Shown here piece by piece: positions 5,358-21,016 of a DNA stretch of 64,000 bases. Position 1 is the stretch's first letter; every line of letters starts with the position of its first letter. Source of the DNA: Myxococcota bacterium (GTDB lineage Bacteria; Myxococcota; B64-G9); assembly GCA_022710975.1 (NCBI GenBank), contig JAKLGA010000004.1, positions 365,084 through 429,083 on the forward strand, read 5' to 3'. A program made the translations under genes and the position numbers. Below the pieces are notes generated by a model that worked only from the letters and a program-made list of their open reading frames with translations, had not been told where the DNA came from and made no database searches.

Positions 5358-7630
5358 GAACCCTCATCGGGCTGCCCGCGATCCTGGCCCTGGCCGCCGC
5401 GGCCTGCACCGAGGGCGCCGTCGCGCCGCCCGCCGACGCCGCCCTGACGCCCGCGGATGCGGGCGCGGCGCCCGAGGCCAGGCCCGCGCCCCCGGGTCTG
5501 GACGAGCCCTGGGCCAGCCAGCCCGAGCTCATCCAGGCCCCGGCCCGGGCCGAGCCCAAGGCGCTCCAGGTGCCCCCGCTCGAGCGGTTCGCGCTGCCCA
5601 ACGGGCTCCAGGTCAGGGTCATGCGGGAGGCCAGCCTGCCGCTGGTGCAGCTGAGCCTCTGGTTGCCGGCCGGCACCGACCAGGAGACCCGCGAGCTGCG
5701 CTCCCTGGCCCAGTTCACCGCCCGCATGCTCACCCAGGGGACCCAGGCGCGCAGCGCCGAGAAGATCGCCGAGACCATCGACCGCGTGGGCGGCAAGCTC
5801 GAGGCCAGCGCGGACGAGGACGGCACCCGGGTGACCTGTCAGGCGCTGAGCAAGGAGCTGGGCACCTGCCTGGAGCTGCTGCCCGACGTGGTGCTGCGGG
5901 CCACCTTCCCCGAGTCCGAGCTGGGCCGGGTGCGAGACGAGATGCTGGCCGCGCTCAAGCAGGTCCGCGACGTACCGCAGAAGCTGGCCATGGAGCACTT
6001 CGCGAACCTCCTGTGGGGCGAGGACCACGTGCGCGGCTGGCCCGAGACGGCCAAGACGATCGGGGCCATCGCCCGCAAGGATCTGCTGGCCTGGCACGCC
6101 GCGCGTTTCCAGCCCCGGGGCTCGATCCTGTTCGTGGCGGGCGACGTGGACCCGGGGGCGCTGAAGCCCCTGCTGGAGAAGGCCTTCGGCGGCTGGCCGC
6201 AGGGCAGCGTGCCGCCCCCCGAGGTCTACCCCGCGCCGAGCTTCAAGGGCCTCTCCATCCGGCTGATCGACAAACCCGACCAGGAGCAGACCCAGATCGT
6301 GGTCGGCCACCTGGGGCTGGCGGCGGCGGACCAGGACTTCCTGGCCACCACCCTGTTCAACTACACCCTGGGGGCGGGCGCCTTCTCCTCGCGCCTGATG
6401 AAGGTGGTGCGCTCCGAGGGCGGCAAGACCTACCACGCCAGCTCGCACTTCGACGCCGGGCGGGAGCGCGGGCCGTTCTGGGCGTACACCTTCACCAAGA
6501 ACGCCCAGGTGGTCGCCACCCTCGGGCTGGTGCTGGGCGAGCTGGACAAGATGCGCCGCGCGGGCCCCACCCCGGCCGAGCTGGAGGACGCCAAGAGCAA
6601 CCTGGCCGGCAACCACCCCCTGCGCCTAGAGAGCCCGTTCGCCCTGGCGGACGCGCTGCTGGGCGCCGAGCTGGAGGGGCTGGACGACGCCTACGTGCGC
6701 GAGTTCCCCCTGCGGGTGAGCGCGCTCTCCCTGGACGAGGTCAAGGCCGCGGCGGCCAGGCGCCTGGATCCCGAGAACGCCGTGGTGGTGCTGGTGGGCA
6801 AGGCCGAGGAGCTCGAGCCGCTGCTCAAGGCGGCCGGCTACACCTGGGAGAAGGTCGGCTACCTGGAGCCCACCTCGGCCCGCGAGCGGGCGGCCGCCAG
6901 GGCCGATCTGGCGACGCCCCTCGACCCGGCCAAGGTGGAGGCGGGCCGGAAGCTGCTCGATGAGGCGCTGGCTGCCAAGGGCGGCCTGGACAAGCTCCGG
7001 GCCGTCAAGGACATCCAGCTCAAGGGCGCGGGCAAGCTGAGCGCGCAGGGCCAGACGTTCGACGTCCAGGTGAGCGGCTACTTCGGCGTGCCGGACAAGA
7101 AGCGCCTGGACCTCGGTCTGCCCATGGGCACCATCACCACCGTGGTCACCCCGCAGGCGGCCTGGGGTGGCATGGGCGCCATGACCAAGGACGCCCCGCC
7201 CGAGCTGGTGGCCAAGGAGCAGGCCCAGATGTGGCGGCACAAGGATCTCGTGCTGCTGCGCCACCTGGAGCCCGGCGTGGTGGTGGTGGCCCGGGACCCG
7301 GCCGAGGAGGGCGGGGTGCGCTACGACGTGGTGGAGCTGCGCAAGGCCGACGGCAGCCTGCGCACCACGCTGTGGCTCGATGCCCGGACGCGCATGCTGG
7401 CCCGCCTGGTGTACGAGCAGGACGGCGAGCAGTCCGTGGAGAGCTACTCCGACTACCGCCCCGTGGCCGGCCTGCAGATGGCCTTCGCCCAGCGGCAGTC
7501 CGGGCCCAGCGGCCAGGTCGAGCTCACGCTGAGCGAGATCAAGGTGAACGCCGGCCTGCCGGCCGGGCTGTTCGACCGGCCCAAGACCCCGGAGCCCGCT
7601 CCCGCCCCCGGGGCGCCCGGTCAGCCATGA
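5354..7630 (+). CDS. M16 family lipoprotein, non-catalytic partner with extra C-domain
   Basis: A 758-residue lipoprotein (lipobox LAAAAC near residue 18) made of two M16 halves (about residues 75-505) and an additional C-terminal domain (about 525-740). The region where an active subunit has HxxEH reads AQFTARMLTQGT, with no histidines or glutamate, so it should not bind zinc. An Arg/Tyr motif typical of the inactive partner is seen near GGKTYHASS. The C-terminal domain, rich in beta strands with VKDIQLKGAGK, resembles outer-membrane-lipoprotein-sorting (LolA/B-like) folds; this is a weak inference. It starts with GTG overlapping the upstream stop and ends overlapping the next ATG, so it is translationally coupled on both sides. 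Confidence 0.88.
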   Translation: MRTLIGLPAILALAAAACTEGAVAPPADAALTPADAGAAPEARPAPPGLDEPWASQPELIQAPARAEPKALQVPPLERFALPNGLQVRVMREASLPLVQLSLWLPAGTDQETRELRSLAQFTARMLTQGTQARSAEKIAETIDRVGGKLEASADEDGTRVTCQALSKELGTCLELLPDVVLRATFPESELGRVRDEMLAALKQVRDVPQKLAMEHFANLLWGEDHVRGWPETAKTIGAIARKDLLAWHAARFQPRGSILFVAGDVDPGALKPLLEKAFGGWPQGSVPPPEVYPAPSFKGLSIRLIDKPDQEQTQIVVGHLGLAAADQDFLATTLFNYTLGAGAFSSRLMKVVRSEGGKTYHASSHFDAGRERGPFWAYTFTKNAQVVATLGLVLGELDKMRRAGPTPAELEDAKSNLAGNHPLRLESPFALADALLGAELEGLDDAYVREFPLRVSALSLDEVKAAAARRLDPENAVVVLVGKAEELEPLLKAAGYTWEKVGYLEPTSARERAAARADLATPLDPAKVEAGRKLLDEALAAKGGLDKLRAVKDIQLKGAGKLSAQGQTFDVQVSGYFGVPDKKRLDLGLPMGTITTVVTPQAAWGGMGAMTKDAPPELVAKEQAQMWRHKDLVLLRHLEPGVVVVARDPAEEGGVRYDVVELRKADGSLRTTLWLDARTRMLARLVYEQDGEQSVESYSDYRPVAGLQMAFAQRQSGPSGQVELTLSEIKVNAGLPAGLFDRPKTPEPAPAPGAPGQP

Positions 7631-9000
7631 CCCGGCGGCTCGCGATCCTGGGCGGCTCCTTCAGCCCGCCGACGGCCTACCACCGCCGGGCGGCCGAGGC
7701 GCTGGCCGCCGAGTTCGACGAGGTGGTGGTGGTGCCCTGCGGCCCGCGGCCCGACAAGCCCGAGACCGAGGACGTACCCCCGGTGCACCGCGCCGCCATG
7801 GTGGACATGTGCTTCCGCGGGCTGCCCAGGGTGCGGGTGGAGCTGTTCGATCTCGAGGCCAGCACCTTCACCCGCACCCACCTGCTCGACGAGCGCTTCC
7901 GGCCCGAGGGCGAGGTGTGGCACGCGCTCGAGGCCGAGGCGCTGGCGGGCGCGGGCCGGGGCGAGTCCCGCGTCCAGCGCCGCTGGGAGCAGGGCGCGCG
8001 GCTCTTGCGCGAGGCCCGCTTCGTGGTGTTGCACCCGCCCGGCGCGCCGCCCGCGGAGGCCGATCGTCCCCCGCACCACCGGCTGCTGCCGGTGGCGCGT
8101 CCGGCCACGGCCGCCGAGCTGCGGGAGCGGATCGTCAGCCGTCAGCCGCTGGCTGGGCTGGTGGTGGAGGAGGTGGGGCGCTACCTGGAGCGACACGGCC
8201 TGTACCGCAGCACCCACCCGCCGCGCACCACGCGGCTGCAGCTGGACGAGCTCCGCCCGCGGGTGGTGTTCGACGAGCACAACCCCGCGGCCCGCGACCT
8301 GGCTGCCGCGCTGCCGCCCGACGCCGGCGAGGCCGCCAACCTGGTGGTGGTGGTGGGCGGCGACGGCACCATGCTGCGGGCCATCCGGGCCGAGTGGCGC
8401 CGGCGCCTGCCGTTCTACGGGCTGAACGCCGGCCACCTGGGCTTCCTGCTGAACGAGCGGCCGCCCGCCCAGGGCTCCGCCCTCGGCCTGACCATCGAGC
8501 ACCTGCCGCTGCTGCACGTCCTGGTCGAGCGCGCGGACGGGAGCCAGGACCAGGCCCTGGCCTTCAACGACGCCTGGGTCGAGCGAGCCAGCGGCCAGAC
8601 CGCCTGGCTGGAGATCCGCGTGGGCGGCCGGGTGCGGGTGGAGCGGCTGGTGGCCGACGGCGCCCTGATCGCCAGCGCGGCCGGCTCGACCTCCTACGCC
8701 CGGGCCATGGGCGCGGCCCCCCTGCCGATGAACACCCCGGCGCTGCTGCTGGTGGGCTCCAACGTGCTCCGGCCGGAGGTCTTCCGCCCGGCCATCCTGC
8801 CGCTGGAGGCCGAGGTTGAGCTGCGCACGCTCGATCCGGACAAGCGCCCGCTGAAGGGCTTCATCGACGGCGTGCCGCAGGGAGAGGTCCGGGCGCTGCG
8901 GGCCCGGATCAGCCGCATCGCCGGCGTGGAGCTGGCCTTCGCGCCCGAGCACGACGCGGCCGAGAAGCTGGCCCGGGTGCAGTTCCCGCTCAAGGCCTGA
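7627..9000 (+). CDS. Fused nicotinate-nucleotide adenylyltransferase (NadD-like) and NAD kinase
   Basis: A 457-residue two-domain cytoplasmic protein. Residues 1-198 resemble NadD, which makes deamido-NAD from nicotinate mononucleotide and ATP: GGSFSPP at residues 9-15 and H19 of the nucleotidyl-transfer motif, and a C-terminal GLVVEEVGRYLERHGLY that is standard for NadD. The first His of the H/TxGH signature is Thr here, and the ISSTxIR motif is degenerate (ATAAELRERI). Residues about 206-457 are NAD kinase (NadK), which phosphorylates NAD to NADP: GGDGTMLR at 244-251, NAGHLGFLLNE, and DGALIASAAGSTSYA. The ATG overlaps the preceding stop (ATGA). The following gene also has an adenylyltransferase-like domain, suggesting an NAD(P) metabolism cluster. 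Confidence 0.85.
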   Translation: MTRRLAILGGSFSPPTAYHRRAAEALAAEFDEVVVVPCGPRPDKPETEDVPPVHRAAMVDMCFRGLPRVRVELFDLEASTFTRTHLLDERFRPEGEVWHALEAEALAGAGRGESRVQRRWEQGARLLREARFVVLHPPGAPPAEADRPPHHRLLPVARPATAAELRERIVSRQPLAGLVVEEVGRYLERHGLYRSTHPPRTTRLQLDELRPRVVFDEHNPAARDLAAALPPDAGEAANLVVVVGGDGTMLRAIRAEWRRRLPFYGLNAGHLGFLLNERPPAQGSALGLTIEHLPLLHVLVERADGSQDQALAFNDAWVERASGQTAWLEIRVGGRVRVERLVADGALIASAAGSTSYARAMGAAPLPMNTPALLLVGSNVLRPEVFRPAILPLEAEVELRTLDPDKRPLKGFIDGVPQGEVRALRARISRIAGVELAFAPEHDAAEKLARVQFPLKA

Positions 9001-10664: not shown

Positions 10665-12779
10665 ATGACCGCGCGGCGCACGGTCTGGCCCTGGACCGGG
10701 ATGCTGCTCCTGCTGCCGGCCTGGGCGGCCCAGGCCCAGTACTCCATCTGCCTGGACCCGGGCCACGGCGGCACGGATCCGGGCGCGGTGGGCTGCGGGC
10801 TCGAGGAGGACGCCATCAACCTGGACACCCAGCTCAGGCTGCGAGACCTGCTCCAGGCCAACGGCCTCAGCGTGGTGATGACCCGCACGACCGACGTCAA
10901 CGTCGGCCTGTCCTCGCGTTCGGACTTCGCCAACGCCCAGGGCGTGGATCGCTTCGTCAGCATCCACTCCAACTCGGCCGACCCGCCCGGCACGGGCATC
11001 GAGACCTTCTGCGCGGTCGGCGCCTCGGCCAACTCGTTCGATCTGCGCGATCGCATCCAGGCCGAGATGGTGGCCACCTGGCCGCTGCGGGATCGCGGCG
11101 GCAAGACCGCCAACTACTCGGTGCTGGTCAACACGGACATGCCGGCCACGCTGAGCGAGCTGGCCTTCATCAACATGTGCTCGCCCGACGCCGAGTACCT
11201 GCGCGATCCGGCCCAGCGCCAGCGCGCGGCCGAGGCGCACCTGCGTGCCATCCTGGGCCACCTCGGCGTGCAGCCCACCTCGAAGGGCACGCTGCGCGGG
11301 GTGGTGTTCGAGGACCTGGGCTCGGGCACGGCCGACATGAGCGTGCGCCTGCCGGGCGCGACCGTGCGGGTGGTGCAGACGGGCGACAGCCAGGGCGCCT
11401 CGGCGGGCACGGCGGACTGGGCCTTCGAGCTGGACGCGGGCAGCTACACCGCCGAGGCCAGCCTGGCGGGCTTCCAGACCGGGTCTCGGGTGTGCGACGT
11501 GGCGGCCAACCAGACCACCTGGTGCTCCCTCGGCCTGTTCCGCGAGGCTCCACCGGACGCCGGCCTGCCCGACGAGGAGCCGGTCGCCGAGGAGGAACCC
11601 GCGGCCGAGGAGGAGCCGGCCGCCGAGGAGGAGCCCGCGGCCGAGGAGGAGAGCCCGGAGGACGGCGGGCCGGACGGGACCGACGGCGGGGTCGATGAGG
11701 AGCCCGAGGACGTGGGCGGCGGCTGCGGCTGCGGCTCGTCCGGCGGCTCCACCGCGGGCCTCGCGCTGCTGCTCGCGGTGGCCCTGGGCGGGGTGAGGCG
11801 GATGAGCGCCGGGTGCAGGCAGGGGAAGGAATCTTCGAGGGTGAGGCAGAAGGAGGACTCCCTGAGGGGAAGGGAGGAAGAGGATTCTTTGAGGGTAGGG
11901 CAGGGCCAAGGGGGCCTGGGGCGCGTGTTGCTCCTGGCGGTCCTGGGGCTGGTTTTCGGCGTCCCTGCCCAGGCCGGTGAGGACGCGGAGATCGCGCTGC
12001 AGCCTGGCTCGTCCTTCGCGCGGCTGGGTCCGGAGCAGCGGGTGGTGGGTGGGGAGTACGGCTGGCCGGCCCTGTCGCCCGACGGCGAGCGGCTGCTGTT
12101 CACCCGGCGCGCCGGTGGGGACGGGCTGTTTGTCCGGGAGCTCGCCACCGGCAGCACGCGCCAGCTCAGCGCGGCGCGCGGGGCGGGCCTGGCCCCCGCC
12201 TGGAGCGCGGACGGCACGCGGGTCGGGCTGCGCGCCGCCGCGGCGCCGTTCGCGGCGCAGGCCCTGACCTGGCTGGGGCTGGACGGCCGCGCGGTGGAGG
12301 CCCCGCCCGCGCAGGGCCTCTGGCTCGAGCAGCGCGGCGAGGAGGTCTGGCTGGTGAGCCTGGATCTGCAGACCCGCCTGGCCGGCGGCCCCGACGGCGG
12401 GCGCTGCTTCGCGCCGCGGCTGTCCGCGGACGGCCGCTTCGGCGTGTGGGGCGAGCTGACCTCCGGCCTGCACCTGGTGCGCCTGGCCGACGGCGCTCGC
12501 TTCTCCCTCGGCCCGGGCAACCACCCGGCCTTCAGCGCGGACGGCGCGCTGCTGGTCTTCGATCGGACCGCGGACGACGGACACCGGCTCACCGCGGGCG
12601 AGCTGTGGCTGGTGGATCTGCGCGCCAGCGAGCCCCGCCTGGCTCCGCTGACCTCCACGCCCGGGCGCATCGAGACCCACCCCAGCCTGTCCCGCCTGGA
12701 AGGCGGCCGGGCCCGCCTGGCCTTCGAGGCCGGCGGGGAGATCCTCACCGCGGAGCTGACTATCGACCCGGCCCCTTGA
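10665..12779 (+). CDS. N-acetylmuramoyl-L-alanine amidase with MYXO-CTERM-like tag, read through into a PD40 propeller
   Basis: The ATG at 10665 follows GAGGAGGTGACGC and starts a signal peptide. Residues about 26-200 are an Amidase_3 (AmiC-type) peptidoglycan amidase with all zinc/catalytic positions visible: H34 in GHGG, Glu at 47/48, His in SIHSNS near 101 and Glu in LSELAF near 165. A carboxypeptidase-regulatory-like domain (about 205-295) and an EEPAAE-repeat linker follow. Then comes a MYXO-CTERM-like tag (about 350-379): GGGCGCGSS, a hydrophobic helix and RR, where such proteins normally end. The frame stays open through three 27-base GA-rich repeats into a second signal-like helix and WD40-like PD40 repeats (WPALSPDGERLLFTR). 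It is therefore either a real fusion or two coupled genes; see the alternative start at 11925. Confidence 0.8.
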   Translation: MTARRTVWPWTGMLLLLPAWAAQAQYSICLDPGHGGTDPGAVGCGLEEDAINLDTQLRLRDLLQANGLSVVMTRTTDVNVGLSSRSDFANAQGVDRFVSIHSNSADPPGTGIETFCAVGASANSFDLRDRIQAEMVATWPLRDRGGKTANYSVLVNTDMPATLSELAFINMCSPDAEYLRDPAQRQRAAEAHLRAILGHLGVQPTSKGTLRGVVFEDLGSGTADMSVRLPGATVRVVQTGDSQGASAGTADWAFELDAGSYTAEASLAGFQTGSRVCDVAANQTTWCSLGLFREAPPDAGLPDEEPVAEEEPAAEEEPAAEEEPAAEEESPEDGGPDGTDGGVDEEPEDVGGGCGCGSSGGSTAGLALLLAVALGGVRRMSAGCRQGKESSRVRQKEDSLRGREEEDSLRVGQGQGGLGRVLLLAVLGLVFGVPAQAGEDAEIALQPGSSFARLGPEQRVVGGEYGWPALSPDGERLLFTRRAGGDGLFVRELATGSTRQLSAARGAGLAPAWSADGTRVGLRAAAAPFAAQALTWLGLDGRAVEAPPAQGLWLEQRGEEVWLVSLDLQTRLAGGPDGGRCFAPRLSADGRFGVWGELTSGLHLVRLADGARFSLGPGNHPAFSADGALLVFDRTADDGHRLTAGELWLVDLRASEPRLAPLTSTPGRIETHPSLSRLEGGRARLAFEAGGEILTAELTIDPAP
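11828..11906 (+). repeat. Three tandem 27-base GA-rich repeats
   Basis: Units begin at 11828 (GGAATCTTCGAGGGTGAGG), 11855 (GGACTCCCTGAGGGGAAGG) and 11882 (GGATTCTTTGAGGGTAGGG), a period of 27 bases or nine codons. They match the dispersed GA-rich repeats near 1.1, 32.7, 50.6 and 50.9 kb, and lie exactly between the amidase sorting tag and the second signal-like segment. Confidence 0.55.
11925..12779 (+). other. Alternative start for a separate PD40 beta-propeller protein
   Basis: In frame with the amidase, the GTG at 11925 begins VLLLAVLGLVFGVPAQA, a classic signal peptide, followed by about 265 residues with repeated SPDG/SADG beta-propeller (TolB-like PD40) motifs. AAGGGGG lies about 12 bases upstream. 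If this is the true start, the amidase and propeller are separate proteins that lost the stop codon between them, or are translated both fused and separately. Confidence 0.4.
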
Positions 12780-14206: not shown

Positions 14207-15481
14207 CTACATGCAATCGTAGTAGCCCTTCGCGCTGCGGTACTTGCACTGCTTGGCGCCGCAGTGGATCGACTTCACCTCGTCGTTCTCGCACCAGACG
14301 ACCGTGTTGCCGTCGCAGCGGCCCTCGAACGTCTCGCCGTTGCAGGGATCCACGGGCTCCTGCTCCTCGACCACGGCGCACACGTAGTAGCGGTTCTGCT
14401 CGTCGAACACGCAGCCCTTGCCCTGGGCCGCGCAGTCCTGGGTGTGGACCTGCTCGTTCTCGCACCACACCACCGACTCGCCCTCGCAGCGACCCTCGAA
14501 CGTCTCGCCGGCGCAGGGATCCACGGGATCCTCGACCGGATCCTCGATCGGATCCTCGACGGGGGCCTCGGCGCACGCGAAGTACTGGTTCTGGGTGGAG
14601 AACTGGCACACCTTGGCGCCGCAGTCCTGGCGGTAGATCTTGTCGTTCTCGCACCACACCACGGTGTTGCCGTCGCAGCGCCCGGCGAACGTCTCGCCGT
14701 TGCAGGGATCCACGGGATCCTCCGCACCACCGCCGCCGCCGCCGGTGCCGGAGACGCCCAGGAAGGCCAGGTAGGCGTCCGCGCGGGTGTCCACGCCGTA
14801 CTGCGTGCAGTAGGCATCGCCGTAGGAGGTCACGCCGACCACGATGTAGTTGTTGTCAGCGTCGCGGAAGAAGGCCGGGCCGCCGGAGTCGCCGTTGCAG
14901 GTGTTCTTGCCTGCGTCCTCGTACCGGAAGTTGGTGGCCTCGACCCGGGAGATGCGCATCCACACGGCGCGCTTGGTGCCGGCGCCCGATTGGTTGTTGC
15001 CGTTGTCCACGCCGTAGCCCACGAAGAAGAGGTCGGTCCCCACCCAGCTCGAGTCCATCTGGTCCAGGACCGCCATGGGCGCCACGGGGGCGTCGCTGGC
15101 CAGGGTGACCAGGCCGATGTCGTTGGCGATGGTGTTGGGGTTGTAGTTCGGGTGGGCCTGGAGGGCGCTGGCCCGGATGGTGGCCTGCGGGCTCCAGATG
15201 TCCGGGCCGATCACGAACTGCATCTTCGAGGCGCTGAAACCGGATACGCAGTGGCCGGCGGTGAGCACCTTGCGGGGGGCGATCAGCGTGCCGGTGCAGT
15301 GGGCCTGCCCGTTGTAGACGAGCGCGCCGACGGCCGGCAGGCCGTCGTAGGTCGAGCCGCCCACGATGCGCGACTCCTGGGTGGAGACCAGGCCCGAGCC
15401 CAGATCCACGCTGCCCGAGGTGCATGCCGAGAAGACCAGCGCCGCGCCAACCACCACCATGACCTTCGTGGAGCTCCGCAT
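14207..15481 (-). CDS. S1-family serine protease lipoprotein with three Cys-rich repeats
   Basis: A 424-residue exported protein with an S1 (chymotrypsin-fold) protease domain. The signal sequence ends in FSAC (lipobox Cys20). RIVGG at 38-42 is the activation site, and the triad is complete: His77 in TAGHC, Asp121 in NDIGLV and Ser199 in GDSGGP. The primary-specificity position, Asp189 in trypsin, is Asn193 (KNTCNGDSGGP), so Arg/Lys specificity cannot be assumed. After a Gly-rich hinge come three repeats of about 45 residues, DPC-GETF-GRC-VVWCEN plus further Cys, joined by EDP repeats; their role is unknown. The ATG at 15481 follows GGAGG; a GTG three bases upstream is less likely. A sigma-54 promoter lies at 15531-15546. 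Confidence 0.9.
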   Translation of the reverse strand: MRSSTKVMVVVGAALVFSACTSGSVDLGSGLVSTQESRIVGGSTYDGLPAVGALVYNGQAHCTGTLIAPRKVLTAGHCVSGFSASKMQFVIGPDIWSPQATIRASALQAHPNYNPNTIANDIGLVTLASDAPVAPMAVLDQMDSSWVGTDLFFVGYGVDNGNNQSGAGTKRAVWMRISRVEATNFRYEDAGKNTCNGDSGGPAFFRDADNNYIVVGVTSYGDAYCTQYGVDTRADAYLAFLGVSGTGGGGGGAEDPVDPCNGETFAGRCDGNTVVWCENDKIYRQDCGAKVCQFSTQNQYFACAEAPVEDPIEDPVEDPVDPCAGETFEGRCEGESVVWCENEQVHTQDCAAQGKGCVFDEQNRYYVCAVVEEQEPVDPCNGETFEGRCDGNTVVWCENDEVKSIHCGAKQCKYRSAKGYYDCM

Positions 15482-15530
15482 CACGATCCTCCAGGGTTAC
15501 CGGACACCTCGCCAGACCCTGCGCTGTGCC

Positions 15531-15546
15531 AGCAAGGCTTGTGCCA
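15531..15546 (-). promoter_or_regulatory. Sigma-54 (RpoN) promoter of the serine protease gene
   Basis: On the minus strand the sequence is TGGCACAAGCCTTGCT, a full match to the -24/-12 consensus TGGCAC-N5-TTGCT, with GG and GC separated by the required ten bases. Transcription would start near 15520, about 40 bases before the ATG. The same element occurs at 20080-20095. Promoters of this class need an enhancer-binding ATPase bound upstream. Confidence 0.8.
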
Positions 15547-15680
15547 ACTAGTTACATGGTCTATGCCATGCATATCCAGTTGACATATAAACATAATTAC
15601 TTTTTTCGGGCGCGGGCCACGGACGACGAGCGGGGGCAGATGGGACAGCTTGGCGCGCCTGCGGGGGGGAGGGAAGGTGG

Positions 15681-15706
15681 CATCGTCCACTTTACGTATG
15701 CCCGGC
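15681..15706. promoter_or_regulatory. Candidate enhancer element, proximal, serine protease gene
   Basis: A 26-base element with CCACTTTACGTATGCCCGGC at its right end. It matches 20230-20255 at 25 of 26 positions and lies exactly the same distance (134 bases) from the sigma-54 element as its counterpart, while the sequence between has diverged. It contains the palindrome TACGTA. It is a plausible binding site for the activator of both genes. Confidence 0.5.
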
Positions 15707-15744
15707 CGCAGGTTGGCCGCATCGACGCGCCAGCGTGGCGCGTC

Positions 15745-15767
15745 GATCGCCCGAGTTACCAGGGCAG
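15745..15767. promoter_or_regulatory. Candidate enhancer element, distal, serine protease gene
   Basis: A 23-base element containing CGAGTTACCAGGGCAG. It matches 20294-20316 at 22 of 23 positions and has the same 38-base distance from the proximal element as its counterpart. Confidence 0.45.
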
Positions 15768-15798
15768 GGTTCTGGGATTGTCCTGGAGCTGCCGATGA

Positions 15799-18700
15799 CT
15801 ACTGGAGCTGCTCGTCCAGCAGGCTCGCCAGGGTCGCGGCGTCGGGGACGATCATGCCCAGGCGGAGGGGCTCGCCGCCGCCCTCGAGCACCAGCACTGC
15901 CTCCTGGTTCTCGCCGTAGCGCGAGCTCTGGCAGATGCCCACCTCGCCCAGCGCCACGCCCGAGGCATCGCGGAAGGTCAGGCTGTAGCTGAACAGGCAG
16001 CGCGCGGCCCTGTTCAGCAGCACCTGGCGCGGCTCGAGCGCGGCGAAGAGGGTGGCGATCTTCTCCGGGACCTCCACCTGGGTCGCCCGCGTCGCGGCCC
16101 GGGGGCCCTCACTCGCGCTCCAGTCGGTGCGCTTGACGTCCACCCGGGCGACACCGGCCAGGGTCTCGTCCACGGTCAGGTCGTTGAAGGGCGAGCCCGT
16201 GGCGGTCGCGGTGGAGGAACCCGGGGGGACCACGGCGGTCTTGCTGCCGGACGCCAGGTAGAAGGGCGTGTTCGGCAGGTTGTCGAACTGCATGGGGGCG
16301 TCGCCGCCGCTGGCGCCGTACCGATCCTCGGCGTACGGGAACACCGTGTGGGTGTCCACGTTCTGGTTCTGGAAGTGGCTGATCAGCCCGTCCTCGAGGT
16401 ACCAGTGGGTCCAGGCGCCGTTCTGGTAGGTGGGTTCGTCGTAGCCGTAGCCATCCTCGGTGCAGGTGGTGGCCACGTTGATGGCGCCCGTGAAGCCCAG
16501 GGCCTCCAGCTCGGGTCCCATGCCGCCCGAGTAGCAGGAGTCGAAGAACACGAAGACGCTGGTGGCCTGGACGCCCGCCAGGTCGGAGACCAGCTCCGTG
16601 TCGCGGTACGACCCGTCCTGGCCGCCCTCGCCCGAGTCCATGTCCCAGGCGCAGTAGAGCGAGCTGCCGGAGCCATCGCCCGAGCCGTGGCCCGAGAAGA
16701 TGATGGCGATGGAGTCGGCGCTCGTGGCCGTGGCGGCCAGATCGCGTACGGCCTGGCGGATGTTGCTCTCCGTCGCCAGCCCGTCGTACTGGGGGTAGTT
16801 GCCAGAGCTCGAGTCGCCGTACACGGAGATCTCGTAGTCCCGCTCGAGCAGGTAGTCGTACCAGTCGCTGGCGTCCTCGTCGCAGTAGCTGAGGTCGCTG
16901 ATGGCCTTGTAGTTGGACACGCCGATGATCAGCGCGTAGCGGTTGCCGGCCGCCGGGGAGCCGACGGTGACGTTCACCGTGTCCGCGGCGCTGGTCTTGT
17001 CGCCATCCCGGACGGTGAGCGAGAAGGTCAGCACGCCCGCCGTGCCGGGCGCGGTGAAGGTCGGCTTGGCGGCGGAGGCGCTGCTCAGGGCCACCGCCGT
17101 CCCCGCGGTCTGTGTCCAGGCGTAGGTCAGGGCGGCGCCCTCCGGATCGGAGCTGGTGCTGCCGTCCAGGGCGACGTGGGCGCCGGGCGCGACGGCCTGG
17201 TCGGCTCCGGCGCGGGCCACCGGCGCCTGGTTCACCGGCGCCCCGAGCATGGCGCGCAGGGCGAAGGCGTTCAGGGTGCCGGCGTCCGCGGAGGCGCTGT
17301 CGATGGCCGTCAGCGTGAAGGTGCCCAGGGACGTCTGGCCGTTGCAGCCGGTCACCGCGTAGGTCTGGTGGATGTTGTCGGCGCTGCTGCCGGTGCGGTT
17401 GTGCAGGGTGGCGACCGTCCCGCTGGGGCACTGCAGCTTGACGGTGAGATCCCCGATGTAGGTGTGGGTGATGTCGACGTCGACCTCCAGCTCCTCGATG
17501 GCGCCGGACTGGGCCACCTGGATCCGGCTGCTCACCCCGGTCGCGTTGTTGTCCGGGATGGAGAGCGGCAGCCCCGAAGCGGCCAGCTCGACGTCCCAGG
17601 CCGAGGCGGCCGGGTTGACCGTGACGCGGACCGTGTCGGCCGCGCTGGCGAGCGAGCCGTCCCGGACCGTCAGGGAGAAGGTCAGCGTGGTGGCCGCGTT
17701 GACCGACGGGGCGGTGAAGGTCGGCCGGGCCGCGGTCGCGCTGCTCAGGGAGACGGCGGTGCCAGCGGTCTGGGTCCAGGCGTAGGTCAGCGAGGCGCCC
17801 TCGGGGTCGGAGCTCCCGCTGCCGTCGAGGGTCACCGCCGCTCCGGAGGTGACCGACTGATCCGCGCCGGCGTTCGCCACGGGCGCCTGGTTCACCGGGT
17901 TGACCGTGACGCGGACCGTGTCGGCCGCGCTGGCGAGCGAGCCGTCCCGGACCGTCAGGGAGAAGGTCAGCGTGGTGGCCGCGTCGACCGACGGGGTGGT
18001 GAAGGTCGGCCGGGCGGCGGTCGCGCTGCTCAGGGAGACGGCGGTGCCTGCGGTCTGGGTCCAGGCGTAGGTCAGCGAGGCGCCCTCGGGGTCGGAGCTC
18101 CCGCTGCCGTCGAGGGTCACCGCCGCTCCGGAGGTGACCGACTGATCCGCGCCGGCGTCAGCCACGGGCGCCTGGTTCACGCCGCCGCCGGTCTGGACGC
18201 GCAGCCGGTACCCGTCCAGGGTCCCGGTGTCCGCCGCGGCCCGGTCGGACACGGTCAGCTTGAAGGTGCCGTTCACCGCCTGCCCGTCGCAGGCGGACAC
18301 CGCGTAGGTCTTGTGGATGTTGTCGGCGCTGCTGCCGGTGCGGTTGTGCAGGGTGGTGGTCGTCCCGCTCGGGCACTGGAGGGTGACGAGCAGATCGCCG
18401 ATGTAGGTGTGGGTGATGTCCACCACGACCTCCATGTCGGCGATCGTGCCGGCGGCGGCCACGGCGATCGAGCTGGAGATGCCGGTCGAGTTGCTGTCCG
18501 GGATCGCCTTCGGCAGGCCGGTCGCGATCTGGTCTACGCTCCAGGAGGAGGGCGGGTTGACCACCACGGTCACGCTGTCCGCGGAGCTGGCCGCCTGCCC
18601 GTCGCTCACCACCAGGGTGAAGGTCAGGCTGCTCGCCGCGTTCACCGACGGGGCGGTGAAGCTCGGCAGGGCCGTGGACGCGCCGCTCAGCGCGACCGCG

Positions 18701-20001
18701 ATGCCGGCCGTCTGGGTCCAGGTGTAGGCCAACGCGTCGCCGTCCAGGTCGCTGCTGGCCGAGCCGTTCAGGGTCACCGCCGCGCCCGCCAGCACGGTCT
18801 GGTCCGCGCCGGCGCTGGCGATCGGGGCGTGGTTGGCCACCTCGTCCTCGAGGTCGGCCGGGATCTCCTTGGTGATGCAGTGGATCGAGCCGCCGGAGGT
18901 GACCGGGCTGTCGGAGTTGAGCAGGACCACGGTGTACCCGGGCATGGCCTGCTGGTAGAGCTGCCGGGCCAGGGTGTTGTCACCGCTCGAGTAGCTGGGC
19001 ACCAGGACGTGGTCGTTGATGATGAGCGAGTTGGTGTAGGTGTACCAGGTGCCGCCGGAGTACCAGCCCGGCAGCCGGTAGACCTGGTAGTTCTGCCCGG
19101 GGGCGCACTCGAGGGCGGCGAAGTAGTTGGCCGCGGCCTCGAGCGGCGCGGCGAAGGGCGCCTGGCCGGTCTGGGCCACCAGGACCTTGCACTCGCCCAG
19201 CAGCTTGGCGAACATGTCGATGTGCCCGGTGCCATCCGCCGGGGAGGTCCCGTTCATGGCGTAGTCGAGCTTGTGGATGGTGTGGACGCCGAAGTTGTCC
19301 TTCAGCAGCAGGTCCACCTGGTTCTCGGTCAGCGCACTGTTCCAGGCGTAGGTGCGCCGGGTCATGAACAGGTTGCCCCGCCCGTCGACCATGATGTTGC
19401 CGCCATCGATGATCAGCGAGTTGGAGTAGCACGTGGCGCCGGCGTAGGTCGCCACCCTGCAGGGGATGGCGTCGTCCTTCGGCCGGGTGGCGTAGTGGCG
19501 GTAGGTCGGATTCACGATGCCGAGCTCGCCGGTGGCCTGGTTGATCCCGACCGGGCCGTAGTCGCGGGCCCACACCGAGTTGTAGGGGAAGTTCAGCTTC
19601 TTGTACTTGGCCGCGGGCACCCCCGCGATGCTGCTGGGGCCGTTGATGGCCCACACCTCGGCCCCGGAAGCGGCGGCCTGGACGGCGATCTGGTTCAGCA
19701 GGGTGGTGTAGCCGGCGTAGGTCACCACCACCGCGCGGGTGGGCGCGTACTCCGCGGGCACCACGAAACCCGTGGGCGGTACATCCCGTCCGGTGTACAG
19801 GGGGGGGGCCGTGCGGGCCTGGATCGTGCGCTCCTCGTCGGTGGCCCAGTTGGGCAGCGCCGCGTGGTTCTGCGCCTCCTCGTACGACTGCTCGTCGAAG
19901 CCGGGCTCCCCACCGCAGGCCCCCACCATCAGCGCCGCGCCGAGCAGCGCGATGAACATCCTCACCCCGACCGCCGCCAGGACCTTCGTGGTGCTCCGCA
20001 T
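15799..20001 (-). CDS. Peptidylarginine-deiminase/caspase-like fusion lipoprotein
   Basis: A 1400-residue exported protein (signal sequence with lipobox GAC, Cys29). Residues about 75-390 are a PAD_porph/agmatine-deiminase-type domain, which converts arginine to citrulline: Asp147 in WARDYGPV, His260 and Asp262 in GTGHIDMF, Cys375 in GGSIHCITKEIP. The spacing matches Porphyromonas PPAD (D130, H236, D238, C351). Then come a PKD/REJ-like domain (about 395-485), a proprotein-convertase-type P domain (487-607), two nearly identical PKD-like domains (608-798), a second P domain (799-922), a fourth PKD-like domain (to about 1020) and a caspase-like C14 domain (1021-1245) with His1105 in SGHGSG and Cys1156 in DSCYSGG. 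The last 150 residues are unrecognised. It has its own sigma-54 promoter. Substrates are unknown. Confidence 0.88.
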   Translation of the reverse strand: MRSTTKVLAAVGVRMFIALLGAALMVGACGGEPGFDEQSYEEAQNHAALPNWATDEERTIQARTAPPLYTGRDVPPTGFVVPAEYAPTRAVVVTYAGYTTLLNQIAVQAAASGAEVWAINGPSSIAGVPAAKYKKLNFPYNSVWARDYGPVGINQATGELGIVNPTYRHYATRPKDDAIPCRVATYAGATCYSNSLIIDGGNIMVDGRGNLFMTRRTYAWNSALTENQVDLLLKDNFGVHTIHKLDYAMNGTSPADGTGHIDMFAKLLGECKVLVAQTGQAPFAAPLEAAANYFAALECAPGQNYQVYRLPGWYSGGTWYTYTNSLIINDHVLVPSYSSGDNTLARQLYQQAMPGYTVVLLNSDSPVTSGGSIHCITKEIPADLEDEVANHAPIASAGADQTVLAGAAVTLNGSASSDLDGDALAYTWTQTAGIAVALSGASTALPSFTAPSVNAASSLTFTLVVSDGQAASSADSVTVVVNPPSSWSVDQIATGLPKAIPDSNSTGISSSIAVAAAGTIADMEVVVDITHTYIGDLLVTLQCPSGTTTTLHNRTGSSADNIHKTYAVSACDGQAVNGTFKLTVSDRAAADTGTLDGYRLRVQTGGGVNQAPVADAGADQSVTSGAAVTLDGSGSSDPEGASLTYAWTQTAGTAVSLSSATAARPTFTTPSVDAATTLTFSLTVRDGSLASAADTVRVTVNPVNQAPVANAGADQSVTSGAAVTLDGSGSSDPEGASLTYAWTQTAGTAVSLSSATAARPTFTAPSVNAATTLTFSLTVRDGSLASAADTVRVTVNPAASAWDVELAASGLPLSIPDNNATGVSSRIQVAQSGAIEELEVDVDITHTYIGDLTVKLQCPSGTVATLHNRTGSSADNIHQTYAVTGCNGQTSLGTFTLTAIDSASADAGTLNAFALRAMLGAPVNQAPVARAGADQAVAPGAHVALDGSTSSDPEGAALTYAWTQTAGTAVALSSASAAKPTFTAPGTAGVLTFSLTVRDGDKTSAADTVNVTVGSPAAGNRYALIIGVSNYKAISDLSYCDEDASDWYDYLLERDYEISVYGDSSSGNYPQYDGLATESNIRQAVRDLAATATSADSIAIIFSGHGSGDGSGSSLYCAWDMDSGEGGQDGSYRDTELVSDLAGVQATSVFVFFDSCYSGGMGPELEALGFTGAINVATTCTEDGYGYDEPTYQNGAWTHWYLEDGLISHFQNQNVDTHTVFPYAEDRYGASGGDAPMQFDNLPNTPFYLASGSKTAVVPPGSSTATATGSPFNDLTVDETLAGVARVDVKRTDWSASEGPRAATRATQVEVPEKIATLFAALEPRQVLLNRAARCLFSYSLTFRDASGVALGEVGICQSSRYGENQEAVLVLEGGGEPLRLGMIVPDAATLASLLDEQLQ
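17611..18180. repeat. Tandem duplication of a 285-base PKD-like module
   Basis: Copies at 17611-17895 and 17896-18180 differ at only six positions by my count (about 98% identity). They encode the second and third PKD-like domains of the deiminase-caspase protein, 95 residues each. The flanking PKD and P-domain modules are similar but more diverged, so this is a recent duplication or is maintained by gene conversion. Confidence 0.9.
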
Positions 20002-20079
20002 CGCGATCCTCCAGGGTTGCCGAACGCTCCTCTTGCCATCGGCGGGTCATGGCTGCCCCGCCAGACGCCGCCCTGTGCC

Positions 20080-20095
20080 AGCAAAGCCTGTGCCA
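20080..20095 (-). promoter_or_regulatory. Sigma-54 (RpoN) promoter of the deiminase-caspase gene
   Basis: On the minus strand it reads TGGCACAGGCTTTGCT, a full match to the -24/-12 consensus with GG-N10-GC spacing. The start would be near 20069, leaving a leader of about 68 bases with GGAGG before the ATG at 20001. The upstream 20 bases, including TTACATGG, are shared with the serine protease promoter. Confidence 0.8.
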
Positions 20096-20229
20096 CATGG
20101 TTACATGGCCCGACAGACTTTAAACATATTGAAAATTAAAGATAAAAAGCTACTACCCCGAATCTGTAAGGCGCGAGAATCCGAAAGCATGTGAATACAT
20201 GTCGCGCACCGACGGCCAAGGAGGAGAGG

Positions 20230-20255
20230 CATCGGCCACTTTACGTATGCCCGGC
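20230..20255. promoter_or_regulatory. Candidate enhancer element, proximal, deiminase-caspase gene
   Basis: Counterpart of 15681-15706 (25 of 26 bases identical), 134 bases upstream of the sigma-54 element. The 121 bases between the TTACATGG block and this element are AT-rich and unlike the other copy in sequence but identical in length, which suggests the spacing matters, for instance for DNA looping. Confidence 0.5.
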
Positions 20256-20293
20256 GGCCTGTTGAGCATGCAGGTGCGCCAGGAGGGCGCAAA

Positions 20294-20316
20294 GATCGCT
20301 CGAGTTACCAGGGCAG
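20294..20316. promoter_or_regulatory. Candidate enhancer element, distal, deiminase-caspase gene
   Basis: Counterpart of 15745-15767 (22 of 23 bases identical). It contains CGAGTTACCAGGGCAG, lies 38 bases beyond the proximal element and about 45 bases from the stop of the next gene. Confidence 0.45.
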
Positions 20317-20362
20317 ATTTTTGGTGTTGTCTATATATTACGAATGGTTGGGCCTGGAGCGG

Positions 20363-21016
20363 TCAGTCGACGAAGACGAAGGAGTCCAGAAACAGGCGGA
20401 CCAGATCGGCCTTCTCCTTGCCCTCGGGAAAGGCGGCGAAGAGCTGGTATCCGCGGGTGCCCGCCCGGAAGACCCGGGCGTAGTACCTGGTGCGGCCCAG
20501 CGGCCCGGCGCCGACGAGCTCGAACTCCTTCCCCTTGCGACCCTGCAGGTCGAGGTCCTTCTGGGAGAGGATCTTGCCGACCATGTTGTGGACCAGCGTC
20601 CAGGTGGCGTCCTCGAAGAACCTGGCGTCCGGGGTCCGGTCCACCAGCGCCTGCGGGTACTCGGTCACGGTCAGGCTGTAGGCGCCGTCGTGCTCCGGGG
20701 CCAGCGAGACGAAGACCACGTGGATCGTCTGTCCGTCCGGCGTGTCGTCGCGTTTCTCCGCGCGCTCGGGCAGGCGCGGGAAACGCAGCTTGAAGCCGGC
20801 CTGCTGCGGGGCGAACTCCTTCCACACGATGGGCTGCAGCAGGGTGGGGCTGTCCCGGGGGGGCGCCGGATCGGGCTGCGCCGCGGCCGGCGCGGGCGCG
20901 GCGGGCTGGGCCAGCTGCACGGCCGGGGCCGGCTCATCGCTGCGGGTGCAGCCCACGGGCCAGGCCGCGCACAGGCAGGCGAGGCTGCCGAGGGTGACGA
21001 AGGGTGCGGTTCGCAT
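20363..21016 (-). CDS. Lipoprotein of unknown function
   Basis: A 217-residue predicted lipoprotein. The ATG at 21016 follows GAGGAG and gives a signal sequence ending in WPVGC; the 28 codons upstream in the frame are dispensable. An Ala/Pro-rich spacer precedes a compact C-terminal domain (about residues 60-217) starting FKLRFPRLPE and containing DARFFEDATWTLVHNM and GRTRYYARVFRAGTRGYQLFA. This pattern is common in small secreted proteins of planctomycetes and myxobacteria, but I cannot name a function. It lies downstream of, and in the same orientation as, the spermidine-synthase-like gene, 93 bases away. Confidence 0.7.
   Translation of the reverse strand: MRTAPFVTLGSLACLCAAWPVGCTRSDEPAPAVQLAQPAAPAPAAAQPDPAPPRDSPTLLQPIVWKEFAPQQAGFKLRFPRLPERAEKRDDTPDGQTIHVVFVSLAPEHDGAYSLTVTEYPQALVDRTPDARFFEDATWTLVHNMVGKILSQKDLDLQGRKGKEFELVGAGPLGRTRYYARVFRAGTRGYQLFAAFPEGKEKADLVRLFLDSFVFVD

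Follow-up and report, generated by a model that had tools for sequence, protein, structure and literature searches.

The locus raises a simple question: can a single exported protein both cut its targets and citrullinate the ends it creates? In Porphyromonas, citrullination depends on an Arg-gingipain that exposes C-terminal arginines; the deiminase, PPAD, has to our knowledge been studied almost only in that genus, the reason being rheumatoid arthritis. The window analysed here, a stretch of 64,000 nucleotides (G000:C24:365084-429083) from a genome of 7.13 Mb in 29 contigs, contains an open frame of 1400 codons without an internal stop (Table 1), in which a sequence-only reading had seen a peptidylarginine deiminase and a caspase-like protease joined by PKD-like and P-domains in one secreted lipoprotein.

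Architecture and integrity of the fused gene

The full-length domain search that this reading had proposed recovered all of these domain types with Pfam: PAD_porph at residues 133-381 (2.5e-40), Peptidase_C14 at 1021-1161 (2e-12) and, as linkers, four K319L-like PKD stretches (3e-73) and two P_proprotein stretches (1.8e-42). The gingipain profile, Peptidase_C25, was absent from the Pfam matches of the protein up to E 1, and the best NCBIfam matches, below cut-off, were to M36 metallopeptidase models and covered the PKD/P stretch. The PKD and P-domains are likely to act as spacer and substrate-binding arms. Secretion, as claimed earlier, is predicted from a lipobox-like pattern ending at C29, assigned with what we take to be the lipobox consensus; the same kind of pattern occupies residues 19-29 of the database proteins P0002 and P0003, the N-terminus encoded in the window being identical to that of P0002, and the 1400-residue protein is predicted to be an exported surface lipoprotein. 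Lys and Arg are unevenly spread along the chain, with none in the 105 residues of the first PKD and 8.3 per 100 in the post-caspase tail. This tail resembles (28% over 93 residues) a free-standing predicted lipoprotein, L073:1294-1869, of a genome of the same family (G007).

Table 1. Features of the deiminase-caspase locus (window coordinates)
Feature	Positions	Strand	Basis
Trypsin-family predicted lipoprotein, next gene downstream	14207..15484	minus	Pfam Trypsin 1.2e-27
Deiminase-caspase gene	15799..20001	minus	ATG-started open frame, domains, architecture shared with P0001/P0002/P0003
C-terminal tail domain, aa 1256-1400 (145 aa)	15802..16236	minus	no Pfam match
Metacaspase-type protease domain, aa 1015-1255: dyad H1105/C1156; S1 C1040, D1043, S1103, D1154	16237..16959	minus	Pfam, 23-sequence alignment, PDB profile, model, fold comparison
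P-domain no. 2 and PKD no. 4, aa 800-1014 (approximate boundaries)	16960..17604	minus	Pfam
Pair of nearly identical PKD units encoded by the 285-bp tandem repeat, aa 606-799	17605..18186	minus	Pfam, repeat analysis, copy-number variant P0001
PKD no. 1 and proprotein-convertase P-domain no. 1, aa 386-605 (approximate boundaries)	18187..18846	minus	Pfam
PPAD-type deiminase domain, aa 76-385: D147, R173, H260, D262, N324, C375	18847..19776	minus	Pfam, PDB profile search, tree, model
Signal peptide and lipobox, aa 1-29, ending at C29	19915..20001	minus	lipobox-like pattern
5' region of the deiminase-caspase gene, piecewise similar to that of the trypsin-like gene (15485-15800)	20002..20364	minus	sequence comparison

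The two enzyme domains are separated by a 285-bp tandem repeat (17610-18180, 97% matches), whose copy number varies among assemblies: P0001 lacks one 95-residue unit and is otherwise identical to the window protein, while P0002 differs from it at two residues, and both likely come from the window's own species. P0003 (1396 aa), from a JGI contig of 12,195 bases, is 84% identical overall, has an identical domain order and retains all 15 of the key residues checked. Because this protein, from a separate source and contig, keeps the order and every catalytic residue despite the variable repeat number, the fusion is not an assembly error, and a chimera formed at the PKD repeat is ruled out. P0003 is thus intact on the two points at which the sequence-only reading had considered itself vulnerable, namely an assembly error between the domains and a loss of catalytic residues in close homologues.

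Protein searches with the deiminase region and the caspase region returned 13 and 24 proteins, respectively, and in both cases PF04371 and PF00656 occurred together in the same three, P0001-P0003. Within these searches the fusion is restricted to the window protein and its close relatives; since they require shared five-residue words and a length between 0.55 and 1.75 times that of the query, and scoring with the caspase region was limited to the 7993 candidates sharing most words, distant fusions could be missed. A scan of contigs with the window protein gave two Aminicenantes loci through the P/PKD region (query 500-927 and 537-1013) and no orthologue.

Two catalytic domains and their predicted specificities

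All six catalytic residues named earlier, D147, H260, D262, C375, H1105 and C1156, were found where stated. In the deiminase, D147, H260, D262 and C375 correspond to PPAD Asp130, His236, Asp238 and Cys351, and a fifth residue that the sequence-only reading had left unnamed, N324, corresponds to Asn297; all five are invariant in the 48 rows of alignment A2, which holds 47 proteins taken from 120 listed among 433 found. The spacing said to be that of Porphyromonas PPAD holds for the later intervals (2 and 113 residues in both) and fails for the first (113 against 106 in PPAD).

The choice between a PPAD-type enzyme and an agmatine deiminase was informed by a sample of 195 genomes of the phylum. 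PF04371 matched in 51 of them, and the matches were split by bit score into an agmatine-deiminase band, a PPAD band, whose limits of 110-162 bits were chosen by eye, and a low band. PPAD Arg154 contacts the C-terminal carboxylate of the substrate. Its position is occupied by R173 in the window deiminase, and Arg is found there in 32 of 36 PPAD-like and 5 of 8 low-band rows and in none of the 30 agmatine-deiminase-band rows, which have an F[ND][GA]W-type motif, missing from the window deiminase, at the place of Arg152/Arg154. PPAD Arg152 itself aligns with A171 or H169 depending on the alignment used; the adjacent R168 is conserved in 44 of the 48 rows of A2. In a quick tree of 75 rows (24 chosen protein-database rows, 12 of A1, 30 agmatine-deiminase-band loci, 8 of the 12 low-band genomes, and PPAD; one sequence appears twice, as P0137 and as L063), the 30 agmatine-deiminase-band rows, all collected by profile search and drawn from the 31 genomes of that band with G120 left out, fall on one side (support 100); opposite them lie the window deiminase and PPAD, in separate subgroups. 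In a PDB profile search the nearest solved sequence is PPAD; on structural alignment the window domain is 28% identical to PPAD, and its fold resembles that of agmatine deiminases just as closely. The agmatine deiminase model TIGR03380 gives the window protein 80.4 bits, the cut-off being 381.8. An agmatine deiminase identity is rejected on the score, the motif and the tree, the fold being tied. Since its top score is to PPAD, its place in the tree is apart from the agmatine-deiminase-band proteins and Arg154 is kept, the domain is, by its sequence, a peptidylarginine deiminase of PPAD type, as first proposed, and it would be specific for C-terminal Arg. The structure modelling that had been suggested was run on the domains, with a pLDDT of 93.8 for the deiminase and 84.0 for the caspase.

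The caspase-like call became more precise. The H1105/C1156 dyad is invariant in the 23 aligned sequences, the Pfam C14 match (47.8 bits) is well above its cut-off (21.4), and both the nearest solved sequences in the PDB profile search and the top fold match are metacaspases. The fold comparison does not clearly place the domain nearer to metacaspases than to other clan CD enzymes. The S1 residues of TbMCA2, Cys92, Asp95, Ser156 and Asp211, are matched by C1040, D1043, S1103 and D1154, as judged by aligning motifs with those of AtMCA4 and yeast Mca1 and counting from the catalytic residues rather than from a residue-by-residue TbMCA2 alignment; dyad and S1 positions are kept in P0003. Because all four S1 residues are present, the domain is predicted to be a metacaspase-like protease that cleaves after Arg or Lys. 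The S1 pocket of legumain (C13) contains Arg44/His45 (PMC4357240). In the 23-sequence alignment, the motif L-S-Y-C-D-E-D-A of the window protein holds neither Arg nor His.

The caspase relatives P0014-P0034 are 39-53% identical in this domain and share its key residues, except that S1103 is Ala in P0033 and P0034. They carry other domains, without PF04371, and the subfamily is found with PF17957 (which we take to be Big_7) and PF04151 (presumably a pre-peptidase domain). Many have, by eye, signal-like N-termini together with metacaspase-type S1 residues; an organism is given for two, both archaeal MAGs (one Asgard, one Thermoplasmatota).

Relatives, gingipain-family proteases and neighbouring genes

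The PPAD band comprises 12 frames in 9 genomes, namely the window frame, a paralog in the same genome and ten more; a contig-edge fragment (G044:C164, 136 bits, 131-aa frame) was left out, both G120 fragments were placed in the agmatine-deiminase band, G034 stands in the PPAD and agmatine-deiminase bands, and G178:C7 (25.3 bits) was excluded. Five of the 11 relatives were scanned with Pfam. L060, from a genome of the same family (G003), has the order deiminase-PKD-P-PKD-P, then a stop, and no caspase; L064 has a deiminase, two PKD and a lamin-tail domain before it is truncated by the contig end; and the C-terminal parts of L002, L059 and L062 are Cys-rich/MopE regions. The frame of L060 (5727-8255), the closest caspase-free architecture, contains a break within the first P-domain. 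The paralog in the window genome, L002:1261-3909 (G000:C29, 882 aa), consists of a deiminase, Cys-rich repeats, a MopE motif and a MYXO-CTERM match just above cut-off (23.3 against 20 bits), again without a caspase; the sorting domain points to Myxococcota. P0115, a PPAD-like deiminase with 45% identity, is listed under Globomyces sp., a chytrid fungus, through either transfer or contamination.

None of the other 8 PPAD-band genomes gave a match to the caspase-plus-tail piece at E 0.001, and the sole strong match of this piece in the 195 genomes was itself, the next best being 32% identical at 44 bits; the C14 genome search missed the window's own C14, so that an undercount is possible, and the caspase-plus-tail search shares its initial step. 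Since L060 is without a caspase, the caspase-plus-tail piece is lacking from the other PPAD-band genomes and the nearest caspases lie elsewhere, the deiminase with a PKD/P tail probably came first; the caspase looks like a lineage-specific addition, possibly acquired from outside the phylum.

Separate gingipain-family proteases accompany the PPAD band. The window genome has five C25 frames above the family cut-off (L049-L053) and one below. At E 0.001, C25 matched in 55 of the 195 genomes (49 above cut-off), including 9 of 9 PPAD-band genomes (weakly in G034, 24.9 bits), 6 of 31 agmatine-deiminase-band genomes and 3 of 12 low-band genomes, where G094 (26.6 bits) was placed for this count. For the PPAD band the hypergeometric p is 6.8e-6 by genome and 0.0015 by genus, kinship uncorrected in both; three of the nine belong to one family, whose nine searched genomes all have C25. 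Matches of at least 60 bits occur in 8 of the 9 PPAD-band genomes, compared with 36 of 195 overall. We regard a partnership of PPAD-type deiminases with C25 across the phylum as a lead, not proof.

The 5' regions of the deiminase-caspase and trypsin-like genes align in three pieces, at 77% over 106 columns, 83% over 53 and 91% over 22, and a 104-bp element from them has strong matches at these two places and nowhere else in the genome; it is as if a promoter-leader cassette had been duplicated. The two genes are likely co-regulated, making the trypsin-like lipoprotein a possible co-expressed partner. Six residues before its catalytic Ser, at what we take to be the position of trypsin Asp189, it has Asn, so that a trypsin-type Arg/Lys preference, and with it the role of an Arg-specific partner, is not supported. 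Nor is an adjacent protease supported as a rule for PPAD-like genes: the 10 ORFs scanned among the neighbours listed, from 9 loci, matched no protease family. Two other open frames of the window may be fusions. That at 10665-12779 combines Amidase_3, a MYXO-CTERM-like stretch (judged by eye, absent from the NCBIfam matches) and a WD40/TolB-like propeller, perhaps as two genes without an intervening stop; that at 7231-9000 has cytidylyltransferase-like and NAD kinase domains, perhaps as a NadD-NadK fusion.

Proposed coupling of cleavage and citrullination, and known systems

The sequence shows the architecture, both catalytic sets, the S1 residues and the counterpart of Arg154, all of them conserved in P0003, and it places the joint action suggested earlier on a better footing. 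We propose, with a probability of roughly 0.45, that a single predicted surface lipoprotein cuts and then citrullinates: the metacaspase-type domain would cleave target proteins after Arg (or Lys), leaving new C-terminal Arg ends that the PPAD-type domain of the same chain would convert to citrulline, so that foreign protein would be broken down or marked outside the cell. That the protease feeds the deiminase, that the two have Arg/Lys and C-terminal-Arg specificities and that they act at the surface are the inferred elements of this proposal. L060 combines a deiminase with a PKD/P tail and has no caspase, so that this type of deiminase does not require one, which counts against strict coupling.

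A possible but unlikely alternative is that each domain has substrates of its own and that they share a chain through module shuffling, the PKD and P-domains being sticky arms for various secreted enzymes. Depending on the protein, this type of deiminase is indeed followed by a PKD/P, lamin-tail, Cys-rich or GEVED tail, the caspase subfamily is found elsewhere on PF17957 and PF04151 domains, and the M36 models matched, below cut-off, over the PKD/P stretch. However, the predicted specificities are compatible, and the fusion is kept in P0003 at 84% identity. Maturation offers another role for the caspase, which would make no substrate and would instead cleave its own chain or its neighbours after Arg/Lys so that the deiminase leaves the surface. 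Among clan CD enzymes, legumain and RgpB become fully active only after cleavage at sites beyond the core (PMC4357240), and the Lys/Arg content of the post-caspase tail makes its removal feasible, but the caspase-free relatives L060 and L064 do without any such module, and a clean release of the deiminase is unlikely because the adjoining PKD stretch has no Lys or Arg; we consider this role quite improbable. Least probable, and by our estimate very unlikely, is a secreted scavenger that takes nitrogen from the guanidino groups of free arginine, agmatine or short peptides supplied by nearby proteases. Such an enzyme would fit the equally close fold and the sub-cut-off matches to NCBIfam agmatine deiminase models, but the TIGR03380 score is far too low and both the tree and the Arg154 column group the window deiminase with PPAD. 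Since free arginine, too, can serve PPAD as a substrate (PMC4893104), this explanation is only partly distinct from cutting followed by citrullination.

The single-chain union of a PPAD-type deiminase with a metacaspase-type protease appears to be new, a version of the gingipain-PPAD partnership in one chain. No deiminase-caspase fusion was reported in the literature titles and abstract openings searched, which is weak evidence as they include few subscription papers, and those pairing PAD with metacaspase dealt only with Candida/Porphyromonas biofilms and neutrophil traps. PPAD-type genes are reported to be more widespread than earlier assumed (PMC8826395), an agmatine-citrullinating enzyme that became joined to new C-terminal domains has been proposed as the origin of PPAD (PMC4487231), and bacterial PADs have been reported to have entered centipede venoms (PMC7864903). 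A single-molecule citrullinating protease and the gingipain-PPAD partnership may both be instances of a general bacterial device built with different clan CD proteases, C25 separate and C14 fused, a tentative idea that we rate slightly below even odds. If the coupled reading is true, protease-coupled C-terminal citrullination has a function beyond rheumatoid arthritis and Porphyromonas, in another phylum, and the fusion would allow coupling to be measured on one recombinant protein with the help of two point mutants.

Among known systems, agmatine deiminase (AguA) has the fold and the guanidine-binding core in common with the window deiminase, which is far below the family cut-off and on the opposite side of the tree. 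The metacaspases and orthocaspases (C14B; TbMCA2, yeast Mca1, AtMCA4) share the His-Cys dyad and the four S1 positions, whereas the window domain lies at the end of a large protein that is predicted to be secreted and also bears a deiminase; P0014-P0034 share the caspase domain, but their other domains differ and include no deiminase. Like P. gingivalis PPAD (PF04371; PDB 4yt9/4ytb/5ak7/6i0x), the window protein is predicted to be secreted and has the Asp/His/Asp/Asn/Cys set and the Arg154 equivalent; unlike PPAD, it is a predicted lipoprotein fused to a protease, with PKD and P-domains in place of the Ig-like domain and no clear counterpart of Arg152. A further parallel is the Arg-gingipain and PPAD of P. 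gingivalis, an Arg-directed clan CD protease and a C-terminal-Arg deiminase that are two proteins there, whereas the predicted partners form one chain here and the protease is C14/metacaspase-like instead of C25.
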